A stretch of 64,000 nt of DNA, taken from assembly GCF_040126055.1 (NCBI RefSeq), contig NZ_CP143541.1, positions 372,001-436,000 of the forward strand. The letters are read 5' to 3'. This stretch comes from Pseudalkalibacillus sp. SCS-8. GTDB taxonomy: Bacteria; Bacillota; Bacilli; Bacillales; Fictibacillaceae. Below are positions 46,679 through 56,790 of the stretch, piece after piece; positions within the stretch are counted from its first letter, which is position 1; the number at the start of each line of letters is the position of its first letter. Made by a program: the position numbers and the translations under genes. The notes beneath the pieces were generated by a model that was not told where the DNA came from, searched no databases, and saw nothing but the letters and a program-made list of their open reading frames with translations.

Positions 46679-47605
46679 TTAATCCTCCCGTACAATCGGC
46701 AGGGTCATGCAACGGATGCTACCTGCACCGTTTTGGAGTTCATCAACATTCGCACCGATGAAATCGTGTTCTGGGAACCATTTTTCGAATTGTGCTCGCG
46801 CATTTTCGTTAATGAGCGCTGTATTTTTGTCCAGATTAATGAAATTGGTATAGTCGAGCAAATACGGTTGATCCGGTAACCAAAAGGTTTCAAAGCCATA
46901 TCTGCCGACAAACTGATCAACCGTCTCGAAATGAGGGTCCACAGCATTCTGTTTCACTACTTCCACAGGGAAAAACTTCATGGCTGGCGCTGCTAAGAAT
47001 CGGTTTTCACCTAAGATGTTACACATCACATCAAGGTGCAGGGATTCCACCGATTGTGGCAATGAAACGAAGCCGATTTCCTTAACACCAAGGTCAAGCA
47101 GGTATTCCGCAAGCTTCTCTTTATTTTGAGAACGATGACCGACATTGACTAGAACACAATCTTGATTCAGGATCATGAAATCGCCGAATTCAAGGGCAAC
47201 GGATTCAGGCAACGAGCTGAGATCCTTCGTCTCGAACAGTTCCTTCATGTAAGATTGCGAGCATTGGAAGTCTGGACTCCTGATCTCGGCTTCAGATTTA
47301 CCTAAGATGATTTTATTGCCGAACACTCCTGCGATATCTCGGACAAAGATCCGGTTTACCAGGCGCCCCCATATCTCTTCATCGCACCCTGAGCTTATAT
47401 CATGAACATGACAGCCGAATGCTTGAAGCTTGGATTTCAGCTCTTCGTGTTGGGCATGTGCTTCCTCACTATGATACTCGTTTACGAATCCGACAGCGTC
47501 TGCTGCAGATTCCGGAACATCATACGAAGTAGGTGCACACACGATTACTTCTCTCAGTGTTTTATTCTCTGAATCACAAAATGGCATCAGCTTATTCTTT
47601 AACAA
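46679..47605 (-). CDS. Arginine deiminase/DDAH-like amidinotransferase-fold hydrolase
   Basis: A 308-residue guanidine-modifying enzyme of the dimethylarginine dimethylaminohydrolase/arginine deiminase type. Landmarks are RLVNRIFVRDIAGVFG, the substrate Asp/Glu in LEFGDFMIL, the His in ESLHLDVMCNILG and the catalytic Cys near the end in GAGSIRCMTLPI. The frame extends to 47773 without a ribosome binding site; AAAGGAGG ten bases before a TTG at 47605 sets the likely start, with ATG at 47587 as alternative. No arginine-catabolism genes are adjacent. Confidence 0.85.
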   Translation of the reverse strand: MLKNKLMPFCDSENKTLREVIVCAPTSYDVPESAADAVGFVNEYHSEEAHAQHEELKSKLQAFGCHVHDISSGCDEEIWGRLVNRIFVRDIAGVFGNKIILGKSEAEIRSPDFQCSQSYMKELFETKDLSSLPESVALEFGDFMILNQDCVLVNVGHRSQNKEKLAEYLLDLGVKEIGFVSLPQSVESLHLDVMCNILGENRFLAAPAMKFFPVEVVKQNAVDPHFETVDQFVGRYGFETFWLPDQPYLLDYTNFINLDKNTALINENARAQFEKWFPEHDFIGANVDELQNGAGSIRCMTLPIVRED

Positions 47606-47913
47606 GGCCCAACATCCTCCTTTATATATGTACATTGTGATAATTAAACGTAAGGGTGTTTTTCCCGAATTTGTTGCTGTTAAACCTACCATTTGTAAAT
47701 AAATAGAAACGGGAGTGTCAGACACCATCTCGGACGCCTTGTGACACGTGCATTTGCAGATGGTGTCTGACACTTTTCAGAACCGTTGGGCCCCAGGGGG
47801 TGAATTGAAGTGCCTGACACTTATTTTTCTAAATCTAGTAGATGGGTCTATGCATTTTGTGTGCGAGTTTAATAGAATATAGTATTCCCTTTTAGAAAGG
47901 AGGGAATACGAAT
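47606..47913. other. Intergenic region with REP-like repeats
   Basis: A 308-bp gap between divergent genes. Apart from the palindromic repeat block at 47714-47822 it must hold the promoters of both flanking genes; no ORF is supported. Confidence 0.6.
47714..47822. repeat. REP-like palindrome, copy B plus half copy
   Basis: AGTGTCAGACACCATCT at 47714-47730 pairs with AGATGGTGTCTGACACT at 47758-47774, again with a 27-base loop. A further half element, AAGTGCCTGACACTT, lies at 47808-47822 after GAACCGTTGGGCC. Confidence 0.85.
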
Positions 47914-48213
47914 ATGAGTTGTTCATGTTCTCAGTCTTATTCGTGCTCATGTTCTTGCAAAAAATCTAGCTGTAATTCTTGTTCCAATTCCCACCGTCAC
48001 TCCAAGTGTAATAAATGTACAGGCTGTGCGTGTGATACGTTCCGTAAATTGACGCCTGGGACTCAGGTGACTGTCATGTTCAATGGCTCGTCAGTAACAG
48101 GGAAATTTTTGTGCTTCGATCCTAAGACGTGTTGTGTAACGATTTATCAGACAATTGGTACGTCAGTTATGACGATTGACTGCCGTGACGTAACTGCCAT
48201 CAGCTTCTCATAG
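47914..48213 (+). CDS. Cys/Ser-rich protein with small beta-barrel-like tail
   Basis: A 99-residue protein. Residues 1-46 are rich in Cys, Ser and Lys with CxC and CxxC spacing (13 cysteines). Residues 47-99 (LTPGTQVTVMFNGSSVTGKF, then FDPKTCCVTIYQ, IDCRDVTAISF) look like a five-stranded LSm-like barrel. Cys-rich proteins of this size are common in Bacillus spore coats, so a coat or crust protein is plausible but not shown. AAAGGAGGG precedes the ATG. Confidence 0.75.
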   Translation: MSCSCSQSYSCSCSCKKSSCNSCSNSHRHSKCNKCTGCACDTFRKLTPGTQVTVMFNGSSVTGKFLCFDPKTCCVTIYQTIGTSVMTIDCRDVTAISFS

Positions 48214-48230: not shown

Positions 48231-48263
48231 AAAAGGACTGTCCGTTCTAAACGGACAGTCCTT
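48231..48263. terminator. Bidirectional terminator
   Basis: AAGGACTGTCCGT pairs exactly with ACGGACAGTCCTT around TTCTAA's central bases, between convergent genes. Confidence 0.85.
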
Positions 48264-48270
48264 GTTGATT

Positions 48271-50250
48271 TTATAGGTTCACCCACGTATATTCAGCTCC
48301 CCAGCTTTCTCGTGCCAGGTTTTCAATCCGAGCGACGATTTCATCTTCAACCGCGAATGCATCCCCTTGTTCGTACGGGTTGTAATGGAACGCATACAAC
48401 CGGGAGACGAACTGGTCGAATGGAAGGGAGGATTCCCCTTCGCGTTCGCCGTTTCCAGAGACACTTGGCTCGATGCCCTGGCCCCAGTTTTGCGAGCCAT
48501 CGTTATTCGGGTTGTAGAAGTAGATCCGATAATCGCCGGTCGGAACCTGTGCGATGCGTAAGATCGACACGGCGTGGAAGCCGAGCAATTTACCGTGTAC
48601 ATTCGTAATGAAAATGCCGACTGGGTTCGGATAGATCAACTCGTAATCGTCATTGTAATCCGGGTGGTGCGTCGCATAGAACAGGCGGACATACCCTTGA
48701 TAATCGGTCACGGTGCCGGTCACAGGTTCAATGACGGAGCTGAATCCACGCTGGACCCATGTTCCGTAAAACTCCGGGTTCACCCATTTATGACCGTCTT
48801 CGCCTCGTAAGGCGACACGTGTCATCATCTCGTTATAAATCCGATCAAGATGTGGAACGAGCACGAGCGAAACTGGATCGAGCTCCTTGTGGAGTTCTGG
48901 TGCCAATCCACCCTTCAAGTCCTTCGAATGGATTGCCGTTCCTTCAAATGTCAGATCGATATCCCCATCACGTGCAGCACGCGGGATCAACTCTAGGAGA
49001 TAACCTGGTGCGTGCTGAGCCCAAAGGCTTATGCCCCTTGCGGACTGACAGGTCGGGTTCAAACCTTGGCCGACGCCGAGCGGCTGACCTAACACGCTGA
49101 TCACTCCGGAAACGAGGATCGAGTTGGCTGTCAGGCCACTCCGATACTCATACGCATTGAAAAGTTCTTTGCGAACTTCCGGTCGGATATCAAGTTCGAC
49201 GAGGCGCCGCAATCCAGGAGCAACGGGTGTTGATGACAACACACCACGGTCGAGCATTTTTGCGAGTCCATAAATGGTCTGTGCTGTCGCTGGGTAGATC
49301 GCCACTTTGATCAGTTGTTTGACGAGCTCGATATGCTCCTCAAGATTCGCTTTCCCTTTGTCTGTCACCTTCAACGCGACCGGAAGCAACTCAGGCTTTG
49401 TTTTATTCAATGCACGCAAAAGGATTGCGTGGTGCGGAGCGACGATTCCAGTCCGTTGCATTGAATCGGCAAGTGCCTCTGCTTCGGTGACAAGGTCATC
49501 ACCATAGACGTTTTTCAGCTCTTTCCGGTAGTCGTTCAAGTTCGGAAACTTTTTACTTAATGGAGAGGGCCCTTCAACAGCTTCGACATATTGCTGAAGA
49601 TCCTCCGGTTTATTTTCAGGTCCTTCCGTTTCCAACAATCGCTTTGCTGTCCGGATCATGGATATGATCCGTTTTACGATAATCGGGCGTTGGGCGGTCA
49701 ACTGGTCAATTTCGACTAGAAGTGTCTTTGATAACGAGATGGAAGAGAGCTGCGTGAACAGGAACTGGAAGAAACGCTGGGCACGATCGTATTGCTCGGC
49801 ATTTTCAGCCTGTTCGATCCGTGATTCCTCTGAACCGCTCGGAAAGAGCAGGTCAAGATTCAGTGCCATCACTTCGTTCAAGAATTCTTCAGCATCCTGT
49901 TGGGTAACGGCAGGGTGGCTCACTCTTCCTTTTGCGATGGCGAGCATCCGCATATCACTCATCACTTCGATGATCGAAGCGAGTCCCTTGGATTTCAAAG
50001 ATCCGCTTACGAGAGGAGCCTGCAATTTAGCGGCTTCTTCCCACGGACCTGAAGAGAAGACGCCGGCCTCATCAAAACGGTCGGCGAATCCGTATAAGGT
50101 TTCCATGCCATCCACCGTTTCCATCAGACGCCCAGCCTCCTGGTAAACGTCGGTCTGGTACATGGACTTGGCGAAGGTTGCGGATTTTTCCAAATCGTCC
50201 AGTGCTTTGGCGAAACGTTCAACTTTCTTTTCGGTCAATTCTGAAGTCAT
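48271..50250 (-). CDS. 659-residue protein of unknown family with papain-like C-H-N residues
   Basis: I do not recognise this protein. Residues 1-370 are mostly helical. Residues about 385-600 look like a separate domain: NPTC401QSARG at the start of a helix, H559 in GKLLGFHAVSIL, and N580 in YRIYFYNPNNDG. The order Cys-His-Asn, each at the end of a strand or start of a helix, is that of papain-like or transglutaminase-like enzymes. There is no signal peptide. It lies downstream of an ATP-grasp gene on the same strand (46 bp apart in the untranslated gap), so the two probably form an operon and act on the same substrate. Confidence 0.72.
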   Translation of the reverse strand: MTSELTEKKVERFAKALDDLEKSATFAKSMYQTDVYQEAGRLMETVDGMETLYGFADRFDEAGVFSSGPWEEAAKLQAPLVSGSLKSKGLASIIEVMSDMRMLAIAKGRVSHPAVTQQDAEEFLNEVMALNLDLLFPSGSEESRIEQAENAEQYDRAQRFFQFLFTQLSSISLSKTLLVEIDQLTAQRPIIVKRIISMIRTAKRLLETEGPENKPEDLQQYVEAVEGPSPLSKKFPNLNDYRKELKNVYGDDLVTEAEALADSMQRTGIVAPHHAILLRALNKTKPELLPVALKVTDKGKANLEEHIELVKQLIKVAIYPATAQTIYGLAKMLDRGVLSSTPVAPGLRRLVELDIRPEVRKELFNAYEYRSGLTANSILVSGVISVLGQPLGVGQGLNPTCQSARGISLWAQHAPGYLLELIPRAARDGDIDLTFEGTAIHSKDLKGGLAPELHKELDPVSLVLVPHLDRIYNEMMTRVALRGEDGHKWVNPEFYGTWVQRGFSSVIEPVTGTVTDYQGYVRLFYATHHPDYNDDYELIYPNPVGIFITNVHGKLLGFHAVSILRIAQVPTGDYRIYFYNPNNDGSQNWGQGIEPSVSGNGEREGESSLPFDQFVSRLYAFHYNPYEQGDAFAVEDEIVARIENLARESWGAEYTWVNL

Positions 50251-50296
50251 TGTCCAACTCCTTTTCTAGTAAAATGGCATCACTCCGTACCAGGTT

Positions 50297-51571
50297 TTAT
50301 CGATAGAAATCGTACTTCTCATACTGTTTGAGAAGGCCGCGCATTTCTTCGCTATCTTTTCCGTAAAAGAAAATCGTACCGTAATGGTTTCCGAAACCGA
50401 CCCGCTCGGATACCTTTCCTTGTTCTGGGGTGAACATATCATGTTTTTCAAAGTACGGGTGTTCTTCAAGTTCTTCTGGAACGTTCAAGTCTTGGATGTA
50501 GTTGATGTGAGGGTGGACCATTAAGCAGCCGGCATATCCTTCTGGTTCCCGTTCATCGGAAGGGAAAAAGTTGCGGAGTTCTTCTTCGGTTGTGTTCGGA
50601 TCGCTGCAGAGAATCTGAGCTTGATAGGCATTGAAGCCGTGTGCGCGTTCAATCAAATCGAAAATGTGGCCTCCAGGGACACGGGCAGCAACTTCACCGA
50701 AATGGAGTGTGCCGTCTGGGGTGATGAAATATTCAGGGTGGATGACCCCGTACTCGATTTCAAAGGCATTAATCAGTTGTTCAATCGCTTTACGGATTTG
50801 TGGGCGTTTTTCTTCGAGGCTTGGTGAAGCAGGGACGAAGTTTGAATAACCGAGCTTCACGTATTCGGTGATGTTCAAGAATTGGATTTTACCATTATGG
50901 ACGAAGACTTCACAGGAAAATTCCTGACCGTCCAAATGACTCTCCATCAGTAGTGGGAAATCGTTATCCGTCAACGCATCAATTTCTTCCGGGTCCTCAA
51001 TGGCACGGTGACCGACAGAGCCAGCTTTATCGAGCGGTTTCACGTGAATCGGGTCGTTTTTATCACCTTCAACCTTCAATAACGCTTCGTTTACGCGTTT
51101 TAAAAATCGTTTTACATCATCTTTACTGTGAGCTTCTTCAAATACACCAACCTTGATGCCGGCGATTTGTGCTTTACGTTTCATCATCCCTTTATCTCTA
51201 AGGAGTAGGGAACGGTTGAATACCCTTGGTTCTTGTCGGAAGCGGGAATTTAAAGCACCAGCCCATTCAACACATTCTTCATATAAAGGGACGGCGACTT
51301 CAGCTCCGAGCGCCTTCAATTTTTTGAAGAGCAAGTCCGAGCCTTCATTCAAACGATCGAAATTCCATCCGATGAATGTGATGTCGTTCTTTTCTGCAAA
51401 ATGTTCAAAGTCCGGGGGTCCAACGACGACAAACGGCTTATCCAGCTTGGCACAAGCCTCAATCGCTGGGAGACTCCAACCGATCAGAGCGGTTAGATAC
51501 GGTTTCGTTTGGTCATCTCCATCTTTCTCCAAAGTTTGTGGAAGATCCATCTGTTCCAATTCCAAAGTCAT
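50297..51571 (-). CDS. ATP-grasp domain enzyme
   Basis: A 424-residue ATP-grasp ligase. N-terminal residues form a pre-ATP-grasp domain with VVVGPPDFEHF. The ATP-binding part has HVKPLDKAGSVGH (the substrate and phosphate loop), LLMESHLDGQEFSCEVFVHNG, and the metal-binding FGEVAARVPGGHIFDLIE. This class joins amino acids or peptides through acyl-phosphates. The start is ATG at 51571 (SD AAAGGAG two bases away) or TTG six bases inside. It is the first gene of a probable operon with the 659-residue protein. No biosynthetic gene cluster surrounds it. Confidence 0.85.
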   Translation of the reverse strand: MTLELEQMDLPQTLEKDGDDQTKPYLTALIGWSLPAIEACAKLDKPFVVVGPPDFEHFAEKNDITFIGWNFDRLNEGSDLLFKKLKALGAEVAVPLYEECVEWAGALNSRFRQEPRVFNRSLLLRDKGMMKRKAQIAGIKVGVFEEAHSKDDVKRFLKRVNEALLKVEGDKNDPIHVKPLDKAGSVGHRAIEDPEEIDALTDNDFPLLMESHLDGQEFSCEVFVHNGKIQFLNITEYVKLGYSNFVPASPSLEEKRPQIRKAIEQLINAFEIEYGVIHPEYFITPDGTLHFGEVAARVPGGHIFDLIERAHGFNAYQAQILCSDPNTTEEELRNFFPSDEREPEGYAGCLMVHPHINYIQDLNVPEELEEHPYFEKHDMFTPEQGKVSERVGFGNHYGTIFFYGKDSEEMRGLLKQYEKYDFYR

Positions 51572-51799
51572 CGCTCCTTTACTAGTTTGGTAGTTTTTTC
51601 CTCGTAAAACCACCTTTCAAACCCATTATCACAGTAAAATTCTGAAAATTCAAATGTAAGCTTGTGAGGGTCCTAGTACAAAAACCATTATATGGTCGAA
51701 TCGTGGTCTAAACGTTGTGAATTCATCTATTATCCTCGAATAACATCATTTTCCCCCGAATCCATTTTAGGTAAGCACATGAAAGGGGAGGAATAAATC

Positions 51800-53494: not shown

Positions 53495-54403
53495 TTAATT
53501 TCCGTACCAGCCTTTATTTGATTGGATCTGGTCGTCGTGGCTTTGGTGCCAATAGTCGACACTGTAAGAGTAGTCATAGTTCATGATGCACTTGACGCCA
53601 CTTCCTTGTTGAACGTGACCGAGACCGTAGTTGTGAGAGAACTCATGTTGTGCTGCGTGCCATGTGTTCGTCGCACCTTGATCAAGGTTGACGGAAACCG
53701 CACTACCGTATGGGGAAGAGCTGTATACGTACGCAATTCCACCTGCGTTGAAGTTCGAATCCTTCGTGAAACCGACAAGGAAGTCATGTCCTGTACCGTT
53801 CCAGTCACGGTCTAAGTCTTGTAGGATTTCAGAAGCATTTGCACCTTGAGAAGACCATTCACCGAATGCTTTCACCTGAAAGTCGATGTTGTGGTCACGT
53901 TGGAAGCCGTTGTCTGCATTCTCAACGATATTTTGGGTCAATGTCTGCCAGTCGCTGTGAGCCGCACGATATTCTTCGTCTACTGCAACGAATACAGTTA
54001 CGACACGAGCTGCACCTGGATCGGTACCGCCGTCTCCATCGCCAGGGTCACCGCCTCCACCACAGAAGAGGATGCAAAGTTCGCCTTCTTCATTTTTCTT
54101 GTTTTTCTGCTTATCTTTTTTCTCAGCCTTATTCTTCTGTTCTACGTTTTTCTCAAACTTCTTTTGCCCGATCTTTTTACCCTTTTCATTGAAAACGTCT
54201 GCGACAGTCGTGTTTTCAATTTCTGCTGGCTGATCGAATGTTTCTTTTCCTTTTGTTTTTGCTTTCGGAAGTTCGTGACCGAAGCTCACTTCATTTCCTT
54301 GTGAGTCAACCATTGTCTTCTCGGAATTGGCTGCATCCGTTAGTCCTGGAGCTAATGTTAATGATAATGCTAGAGTGAGCGCTGCAAAGCGTTTACCTTT
54401 CAT
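53495..54403 (-). CDS. Secreted metzincin-type zinc metalloprotease
   Basis: A 302-residue exported protein. The signal peptide spans about 1-25 (LTLALSLTLAPGLTDAA). A Lys/Asn/Glu-rich low-complexity region follows at 60-110. The catalytic domain holds H-E-F-S-H-N-Y-G-L-G-H near residue 255, the extended HExxHxxxxxH zinc site, and the Met-turn in KCIMNYDYS, so it is a metzincin. Two cysteines (CILFC near 110) precede a Gly/Asp-rich linker. It is probably secreted; the substrate is unknown. Confidence 0.88.
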   Translation of the reverse strand: MKGKRFAALTLALSLTLAPGLTDAANSEKTMVDSQGNEVSFGHELPKAKTKGKETFDQPAEIENTTVADVFNEKGKKIGQKKFEKNVEQKNKAEKKDKQKNKKNEEGELCILFCGGGGDPGDGDGGTDPGAARVVTVFVAVDEEYRAAHSDWQTLTQNIVENADNGFQRDHNIDFQVKAFGEWSSQGANASEILQDLDRDWNGTGHDFLVGFTKDSNFNAGGIAYVYSSSPYGSAVSVNLDQGATNTWHAAQHEFSHNYGLGHVQQGSGVKCIMNYDYSYSVDYWHQSHDDQIQSNKGWYGN

Positions 54404-55278: not shown

Positions 55279-56790
55279 TTAGGGTCGCTCGTTAACCTCG
55301 TATGCGGCTCTCACTCCTGATTGGACGGCACCTTCAATCCACCCGTGGAAGTCTGATGTGTGTTCTCCGGCAAAATGGATACGTCCTTCAGGTCTCCGGA
55401 TGACTTCAGGAAATACGGATGCTTGATTTGGTTTATATAAAGTGAAACAACCGCCTGAAAAAGGATTTTGACTCCAGCTGAATGATGTACCGTTTATAAA
55501 TTCATCATAGACTTGATTTCCATGGACTTTTGCTAAATCCTGAAGGGCCTGGCGAATACGCTCCTCATTCGTTAAACTATTCCAGAGCTTCGCATTATCG
55601 CCCCAGCTATAACTTGCAAGTACGACACCCGTCTGTTTCTTCTTATTTAGGCTGGGTGTGTAGGTGAACCGATTTGGAAAATCCGTAATAAGGTTGGCAC
55701 CCTCCAAGCCTTCCTCTTCCCAAAATTTCTTTTTGAATTCAACACCTACTTTAACAGAAGCGACATAATGCAATTCTCTAATTACCTTCCACTTATCAAA
55801 TGAAAAGGTATGATAAGGGATTACCTCTATAAATTGAAACACCGAAAATGGGATGGCCACAATCAACAGGTCTCCGGAAAAGAGATGGATTTCTTCATCT
55901 TTCATATTCAGTGTTTCAACTGTAACCTCATCTTTTCCATGAGTGATGGACTCAACCTTTTCGTTATAGTGAATATCGTCGCTGAGTTCCTTTAAAAAAG
56001 CTTTCGGTAATTGATCATTCCCACCTGTGATTTCATAAAATTGCAGATCCTCATTAAATACATTGTTAATGATGTCAAAAAGAATATCCGTAAAGGAAAG
56101 CTCTGCGAACCCTTCAAAACCCAGCATGACTTTTACCATACGTATGGCATTTGGGGATAAAGATGGTCCAATCGGATTGAATCGTAAAAAATTTTCCATC
56201 GAGTAACGATCGAACTGTCTGAGGATTACTTTACGTTGTTCAGGGCTGCTGTTTTGAAAGAGGGTCAAGAATGGAGTAACGGCCATCATCATTAATTCTG
56301 TGGCTGTTTTTCCTTTTTCATGAGGCTCAACAGGGAATCGGAGGATATCCGGATTTTTTTTGTATTCCCCTCGGGTGGTCTTCACCCCATTGGTATAGAT
56401 GATATCTTTTTCAGTGGTATTTATAAACGTATTGATAGGAAGGTTGAATTTTCTTATAAGCTCATTCACAAGGTAATGGTTTTCCGGGATTCTCATGGCA
56501 CCCATGTCTAGATAATTCTCTTCTGTAAAAGGCTCACGAACCGTATATACTCTCCCGCCTACACGGTCATTCCCTTCAAGGATCGTTACTTGATGGCCGG
56601 CTTTTTTTAATAGATACCCTGTAACAAGGCCTGCCATTCCCGCGCCGAGGATGATTACGTGTTTAGGATTTTTCGTAGTCGACAGTCCGTTCTGTAGGAT
56701 GGAAAGCATATCTTCGGGATACTTAGGCGAACGGTAAGAATACGATCGGTAAAATCTTGGATAGTACCTTCCATAGGGCAGATATCTCAT
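55279..56790 (-). CDS. Flavin amine oxidase (monoamine/L-amino acid oxidase-like)
   Basis: A 503-residue FAD enzyme. After a Tyr/Arg-rich 40-residue leader (YGRYYPRFYRSYSYRSP) comes the dinucleotide motif VIILGAGMAGLVTGYLL, then LEGNDRVGGRVYT. The C-terminal FAD motif is RIHFAGEHTSDFHGWIEGAVQSG. It oxidises an amine or amino acid to the imine with hydrogen peroxide release. GGAGGG precedes the ATG. The aromatic N-terminal leader is unusual but there is no typical signal peptide. Confidence 0.92.
   Translation of the reverse strand: MRYLPYGRYYPRFYRSYSYRSPKYPEDMLSILQNGLSTTKNPKHVIILGAGMAGLVTGYLLKKAGHQVTILEGNDRVGGRVYTVREPFTEENYLDMGAMRIPENHYLVNELIRKFNLPINTFINTTEKDIIYTNGVKTTRGEYKKNPDILRFPVEPHEKGKTATELMMMAVTPFLTLFQNSSPEQRKVILRQFDRYSMENFLRFNPIGPSLSPNAIRMVKVMLGFEGFAELSFTDILFDIINNVFNEDLQFYEITGGNDQLPKAFLKELSDDIHYNEKVESITHGKDEVTVETLNMKDEEIHLFSGDLLIVAIPFSVFQFIEVIPYHTFSFDKWKVIRELHYVASVKVGVEFKKKFWEEEGLEGANLITDFPNRFTYTPSLNKKKQTGVVLASYSWGDNAKLWNSLTNEERIRQALQDLAKVHGNQVYDEFINGTSFSWSQNPFSGGCFTLYKPNQASVFPEVIRRPEGRIHFAGEHTSDFHGWIEGAVQSGVRAAYEVNERP

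Follow-up and report, generated by a model that had tools for sequence, protein, structure and literature searches.

In a 64,000-nucleotide stretch of contig NZ_CP143541.1 of Pseudalkalibacillus sp. SCS-8 (hereafter the window, whose positions are used throughout), we analysed a minus-strand bicistron in which a promoter-like site is followed by an ATP-grasp ligase gene, a gene for a 659-residue protein and a terminator-like hairpin. The module looks like a complete two-gene unit. The initial annotation had described the two open reading frames (ORFs) and had pointed to C401, H559 and N580 of the second product as a papain- or transglutaminase-like series; both ORFs are present as described, with its end at 51571 the better ligase start, and the three residues stand at those positions. 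The genes and the residues that matter most are as follows.

50297-51571, minus strand: ATP-grasp ligase gene; 424 residues from ATG 51571, 438 if GTG 51613 were used
48271-50250, minus strand: papain-like gene, 659 residues, ATG at 50250
49066-49068, minus strand: Q395, candidate oxyanion-hole glutamine; invariant
49048-49050, minus strand: C401, candidate nucleophile; invariant, and in the model at the N-terminus of helix 401-413
48574-48576, minus strand: H559; invariant, and in the model within strand 555-568
48511-48513, minus strand: N580; invariant, and in the model immediately past strand 574-579

The 659-residue protein had been said to belong to no known family, and it indeed found no family in Pfam (best match E 0.29), NCBIfam (best match E 0.056, far under the cut-off) or PADLOC, while a sequence search of the PDB gave no credible relative. 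When 50 of its relatives were searched with E values up to 0.01, Pfam matches were scattered, with at most 2/50 for any one family, and NCBIfam gave none. C401 is the sole cysteine of the protein. Together with H559 and N580 it is identical in 104/104 aligned sequences, a figure that counts near-duplicates, paralogues and the window protein itself, and all four of Q395, C401, H559 and N580 are invariant in the 50 rows of alignment A1, the most distant of which are ∼35% identical to the window protein. They are four of 63 invariant columns in A1, and their invariance, as judged from these alignments, exceeds chance. In papain the oxyanion-hole glutamine, Q19, lies six residues ahead of the nucleophile, C25; the spacing between Q395 and C401 is also six, and the protein has the residue order Gln, Cys, His, Asn of clan CA. 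The third catalytic residue of transglutaminases is an aspartate. Transglutaminase-like Pfam families matched neither the window protein (E up to 1) nor the 50 relatives (E up to 0.01), and, with an asparagine in third place, a strict transglutaminase identity is not supported. No signal peptide was seen by eye, and the protein is probably cytosolic.

An AlphaFold2 model of the protein, built with A1, had a mean predicted local distance difference test score (pLDDT) of 86.6 and a predicted template modelling score of 0.82, and residues 352-659 folded alone gave a pLDDT of 87.6. The predicted organization is a helical N-terminal part (∼1-350), a papain-like catalytic domain (∼352-624) and a C-terminal tail. 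C401 opens helix 401-413, H559 lies in strand 555-568 and N580 follows strand 574-579; the domain-only model repeats the helix from 401 and both strands. The blocks just ahead of C401 have a lower pLDDT, 75 in the full-length model and 52 in the domain model. In the VIA comparison, the domain model resembled papain-superfamily chains, the best being calpains (Z 7.3, root-mean-square deviation 4.0 over 196), followed by PCAT1 (Z 7.2, deviation 2.8 over 121), whose matched region we take to be its peptidase part, and the phytochelatin synthase Alr0975 (Z 6.1). Staphopains, cathepsin B and others were also among the 50 rows shown, all of which, going by their titles, are presumably papain-like chains. 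The structural matches of the helical N-terminal half were scattered helical proteins, and a fold search of BFVD gave no match at E 0.001. Because the residues, the secondary structure and the uniform list of domain matches agree, the papain half of the earlier description is supported for the predicted catalytic domain, more weakly so by the fold search.

The ligase matched PF13535 (ATP-grasp_4; E 3.9e-10, 40 bits against a Pfam cut-off of 27). Its nearest solved relatives in PDB searches were the L-amino-acid ligases 4wd3 and 3vot, and 4wd3 was the best match of a profile search (E 3.7e-13). Residues E294, E307 and R311 (438-residue numbering) are invariant in 24/24 rows of alignment A3, Halomonas included; A3 draws on 23 relatives, mostly as matched stretches rather than entire ORFs. 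These residues align to the 4wd3 stretches 'hlEi' and 'GEiamRiGGG'. The window ligase thus shares with 4wd3 and with BL00235 (3vot) an ATP-grasp domain, Glu, Glu, Arg and Gly in corresponding stretches and a comparable length, but the similarity is low and the window ligase is coupled to a papain-like gene. By analogy with these PDB relatives, it may join free amino acids.

We then asked how consistently the two genes occur together. A scan of genome contigs gave 543 stretches that encode the papain-like family, and the locus counts reported here refer to the best 80 of the 543 (L-numbers denote individual fetched loci). The ligase gene lies immediately upstream on the same strand in 80/80, with a gap of -26 to 129 bases. 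In an order sample of 397 genomes, 62 contained the ligase (E 1e-60) and 63 a match to the papain-like profile; all 62 have both, and the extra carrier, G789, has a match that covers 49 positions and contains two internal stops. The sample holds 64 modules in all. Conservation of the three residues and co-occurrence of the genes, on which the initial annotation had staked its proposal, were thus both found. A second papain-like copy lies within ∼2 kb downstream of the first in seven of the 80 loci (L058, L076, L077, L083, L091, L094 and L095); these copies have ∼590-630 residues, lack the C-terminal tail and are not adjoined by a second ligase. In some genomes an extra copy lies elsewhere (L013, L014), with no ligase match within flanks of 1.5 kb.

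The distribution of the module is patchy. In a sample of relatives, it was present in 3/8 genomes from the genus of the window (counting the window genome itself) and in 0/26 genomes from other genera of the family. A phylum sample of 398 genomes, queried with the single window protein and not with a profile, gave nothing credible beyond the window genome; one match (E 8e-4 over 119 residues) was taken as chance. The plasmid collection gave one match, in Halomonas sp. PA16-9, which covers 93% of the query at 39.8% identity. This homologue retains Q, C, H and N at ∼40% identity and is directly preceded by a ligase gene whose product is identical to the window ligase at 220/406 positions. Its similarity (L128, 9986-12070) ends at query residue 611, and the last part may be frame-shifted or truly divergent. 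Because of this record and the patchy distribution, we believe that the pair has probably been transferred and is horizontally mobile. A phage or viral origin was rejected: no match was found in phages, and none of 34 pattern matches in viral contigs was confirmed.

In some lineages the module is accompanied by acetyltransferases of the GNAT family. An AblB-like GNAT of ∼284 residues is present in 15/80 loci (L056, L057, L060, L062-L069, L071, L072, L078 and L087), upstream on the same strand in 13 and downstream on the opposite strand in two; in L068 an ORF of 103 residues lies between it and the module. All five that were tested scored over the TIGR03827 cut-off. In the order sample, such a gene adjoins 12/64 modules, in two arrangements. 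AblB-type genes as a whole occur in 50/62 module genomes versus 24/57 module-free genomes, the latter drawn as controls from the sample of relatives, and AblA scored over its cut-off in 35/62 module genomes. An ordinary AblB-AblA pair is present in the window genome, a long way from the module. A tree of 54 AblB-type sequences separated two groups with a support of 1.0. All 31 members of the group that holds the linked genes come from module genomes or loci, and none of the 12 control sequences in the tree was placed in that group; the other 12 positive controls lay outside the tree and were counted as outside the group on score (at least 292 bits versus at most 257 for the linked group). On this count the linked clade is present in 19/62 module genomes, 16 placed in the tree and three counted by linkage, versus 0/57 controls (Fisher p 1e-6, with kinship ignored).

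A GNAT that passes the AblB cut-off beside the module, in one lineage, recalls the AblA/AblB route to N-epsilon-acetyl-beta-lysine. The module differs from that route in its separate AblB clade and in the added ligase and papain-like enzyme. Lysine 2,3-aminomutase (AblA) did not reach its cut-off in 9/12 genomes with a linked gene, and membership of the linked GNAT in the AblA/AblB pathway is not supported. Because the clade is separate and AblA falls short in those nine genomes, the linked enzyme probably acetylates something other than beta-lysine, and its NCBIfam label, beta-lysine acetyltransferase, may be a misnomer for the clade. A second, divergent GNAT of ∼190 residues occurs in 19/80 loci. 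Genome searches with a query that lacked its first residue placed it beside eight of the 64 order-sample modules, once as a partial match, and showed that the copy next to the module is an additional one in several genomes. It weighs less as a partner because its paralogues are common in module-free genomes. Beyond the two GNATs, no recurrent further gene stood out in the 80 loci. The earlier statement that no known biosynthetic cluster surrounds the pair is right for the window, but certain relatives carry additional genes.

The signals around the module in the window, all on its own strand, are as follows.

51674-51680, minus strand: TGTACTA, degenerate, where 32/80 related loci have the Spo0A-box-like TTGTCGAA; 13 bases to CTTACA, as in L041
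51625-51653, minus strand: sigma-A-like promoter, TTGAAT-17-GATAAT with TG ahead of the -10; 9/12 consensus matches, position suits ATG 51571
51574-51580, minus strand: ribosome-binding site AAAGGAG of the ATP-grasp gene, directly before ATG 51571
50258-50265, minus strand: ribosome-binding site AAAAGGAG of the papain-like gene
48233-48263, minus strand: intrinsic-terminator-like hairpin of 14 pairs, starting 8 bases past the stop codon

The ORF list gives the ATP-grasp ORF as 50297-51613 on the minus strand with a GTG start, which would begin 12 bases past the -10 of the promoter-like site at 51653-51625. We prefer ATG 51571 because AAAGGAG precedes it and because the near relative L017 starts at the homologous methionine; on these sequence features the 438-residue form is unlikely. 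The promoter and terminator calls are made because of their position and, for the hairpin, also its length, and not because of the scan counts: there were four such promoter sites in the scanned region versus 5.2 expected in shuffles, so that the sequence match alone is weak, and six terminator sites versus 4.9 expected. None of the other terminator sites has a stem nearly as long as that of the hairpin at 48263-48233, which enters the count once for each strand and comes immediately after the 659-residue gene.

A clue to regulation came from the related loci. TTGTCGAA contains the Spo0A box, for which an excerpt of PMC7643835 gives the consensus TGNCGAA. It occurs in the 250 bases that precede the ligase in 32/80 loci (0/80 in the reverse sense) versus 5/752 other ORFs of more than 150 residues, although the 32 promoters are related and hence not independent, so that the statistical enrichment is overstated. 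The loci concerned are titled Rossellomorea, Bacillus, Halobacillus, Pontibacillus and Pseudalkalibacillus, and the motif suggests Spo0A control of the module in several genera. A sigma-B promoter was dismissed (11/80 loci versus 33/752 ORFs, with a pattern that was too loose). Salt-tolerant hosts, judged by their names, are frequent among the loci. A family search found the ectoine synthase EctC directly downstream of the module in L063, and in L068 this place is taken by another member of that gene cluster. We regard a role in salt stress as a lead, no more.

The initial annotation had also suggested that ligase and thiol enzyme make and trim an amide-linked product or a protein tag. The first half of this fits what we found. 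For a tag we found no positive evidence: among the 12 largest groups of short ORFs, which mostly belong to one genus or lineage or are antisense to a neighbouring gene, no recurrent short ORF of an uncharacterized kind stays with the module across lineages, and the linked extra genes are GNATs. The only group that crosses lineages (11 loci) resembles a cold-shock protein by eye and was dropped as a candidate for a conserved peptide substrate. Such a cold-shock-like small protein is encoded downstream on the opposite strand in L041, L042, L043, L045, L073, L082, L088, L089, L090 and L096, which are loci of Halobacillus and Planococcus/Planomicrobium.

Strict pairing, the papain-like domain, a ligase of L-amino-acid-ligase type and the GNAT linkage support a small-molecule pathway of two genes, to which we give about an even chance. 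The amide formed by the ligase would be transferred or cleaved by the papain-like enzyme, with an acyl-cysteine as intermediate. The ligase would activate a carboxylate as an acyl phosphate, as is established for its superfamily, and then join it to an amino group. C401 would attack the amide of the same compound to give acyl-Cys401, with H559, N580 and Q395 in their papain roles, and in the course of the synthesis the acyl group would then be handed on to another amine or, alternatively, to water. Whether this is acyl transfer or plain hydrolysis we judge to be about evenly balanced. The product would be a small amide or a short peptide rather than a protein tag, and in some lineages, as the linkage suggests, a GNAT (AblB-like or other) would acetylate the amino group of the product or of a building block. 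In salt-tolerant bacilli the module may play a part under stress or late in growth.

Several known systems resemble parts of this scheme. The 659-residue protein shares with the papain-like peptidases and acyltransferases (calpain, staphopain, the peptidase part of PCAT1, Alr0975) the Gln-Cys-His-Asn order and the predicted core fold, and differs from them in having no sequence family match, a large helical N-terminal half and an operon with a ligase. The pathway to N-acetylglutaminylglutamine amide employs an amidotransferase, not a papain-like enzyme, and its enzymes had no NCBIfam match among the five window proteins scanned. In concept that pathway is similar, in that a ligase and an acetylation lead to a neutral acetylated dipeptide osmolyte, and the consulted part of PMC1224877 describes N-acetylglutaminylglutamine amide as such a compound. 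According to an extract of PMC2922099, predicted operons join peptide ligases with papain-like proteins, including a 'New_papain' family. Those operons resemble our module in the broad notion that small peptides are made with peptide ligases and papain-like transacylases; in that extract, however, their core is an oxygenase-cupin gene or a paralogue of methionyl-tRNA synthetase, and additional genes belong to them. Chemistry of this kind is already known, whereas the papain-like family itself has no Pfam or NCBIfam model, and we saw no account of the family or of the ligase/papain-like combination among the papers listed from the open PMC literature, most subscription journals lying outside it.

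A full Gln-Cys-His-Asn site in a papain fold suits hydrolysis best, and the one-to-one pairing of the genes would also be expected if the ligase formed a storage or protective dipeptide-like amide that the papain-like enzyme hydrolysed once it had served its purpose. A catabolic gene should nevertheless sometimes be lost or unlinked, yet this one is kept in 62/62 genomes, and some genomes have an extra papain-like copy without a second ligase; we consider such a division into maker and breaker possible but rather doubtful. Reversible modification of a protein, in which the ligase would add an amino acid that the papain-like enzyme removes or exchanges, as in tubulin tyrosination and detyrosination, would use the same chemistry as the TTL/vasohibin pair of ATP-grasp enzyme and thiol peptidase, and the large helical N-terminal half could bind a protein. 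The nearest solved relatives of the ligase, however, act on free amino acids, no uncharacterized short ORF among the 12 largest groups follows the module across lineages, and beta-lysine acetyltransferase is a close relative of one of the linked gene groups. We think this unlikely, and protein tagging has less support than a small-molecule pathway.

It is very unlikely that the papain-like protein is a structural or catalytically inactive one whose residues were kept for folding. The other 59 invariant columns of A1 would suit that explanation, and no activity of the protein is known, but four residues in papain order, with the papain Gln-Cys spacing and in fitting structural elements, have stayed invariant down to ∼35% identity. 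We see hardly any likelihood that the ligase makes a cysteine protease inhibitor for which the papain-like protein is the target or shield. A fungal route to E-64 has been described, in an article whose abstract contains ATP-grasp (PMC12568646); here the papain-like gene occurs as regularly as that of the ligase and exists in additional copies, and the loci contain no recurrent additional gene beyond the GNATs.

Against the small-molecule pathway itself stand the modest fold scores (all Z < 8, and a best Foldseek E of only 2e-3), a Foldseek list that from rank 7 names unrelated folds such as acyl-CoA dehydrogenases and lactoglobulins, and a full-length model that scores unrelated helical chains at Z 7.0, level with calpain; on the model, the helical N-terminal half could equally well bind a protein. 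The acetyltransferase evidence has its own weaknesses. Neither GNAT adjoins 44 of the 64 order-sample modules, that of the window included, and 12/62 module genomes have no AblB-like match at all. The GNAT associations may have arisen in about three events. Of the nine genomes without AblA over the cut-off, three still show a weaker match to that family (∼214 bits against a cut-off of 525), and paralogues of the second GNAT are found in 62/62 module genomes and also in 42/57 module-free ones, which weakens it as a dedicated partner. Ectoine synthase occurs just slightly more often in genomes with the module than in the others (25/62 versus 92/335; p 0.049, uncorrected for kinship), a difference too weak to show salt adaptation, and the ectoine link was set aside as a sign of it.

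The neighbours of the module in the window were recorded separately. It is followed by a small gene (47914-48213), beyond which lies a gene for an arginine deiminase- or dimethylargininase-like protein (46679-47773, minus strand; PF02274, E 1.2e-13). On its other side are genes for a secreted-looking reprolysin-type metalloprotease with a Lys-rich N-terminal region (53495-54403, minus strand; PF13688, E 1.1e-27) and for a flavin amine oxidase (55279-56790, minus strand; PF01593, E 8e-81) that is possibly an L-amino-acid oxidase.

If the proposed small-molecule pathway is correct, a papain-like family for which Pfam and NCBIfam have no model would gain a metabolic role in many genomes of the Bacillota (one scan gave 543 stretches that encode it), papain chemistry would stand beside an ATP-grasp ligase in a minimal pathway, and a new natural amide could be revealed. 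As a tentative extension, which we rate as rather unlikely, the module may be a previously undescribed way for halophilic bacilli to make a peptide-like compatible solute, either uncharged or acetylated, and this route may have spread to Halomonas. ATP-grasp ligation and GNAT acetylation would then be combined with a papain-like transpeptidase that extends the chain or exchanges the amide. Acetylated lysine and acetylated ornithine build up in Halobacillus halophilus, as stated in the consulted portion of PMC2412884, and acetylated dipeptide osmolytes occur elsewhere, as stated in that of PMC1224877. Some of the acetylated diamino acids that have been reported as solutes in Halobacillus could stem from such a route.

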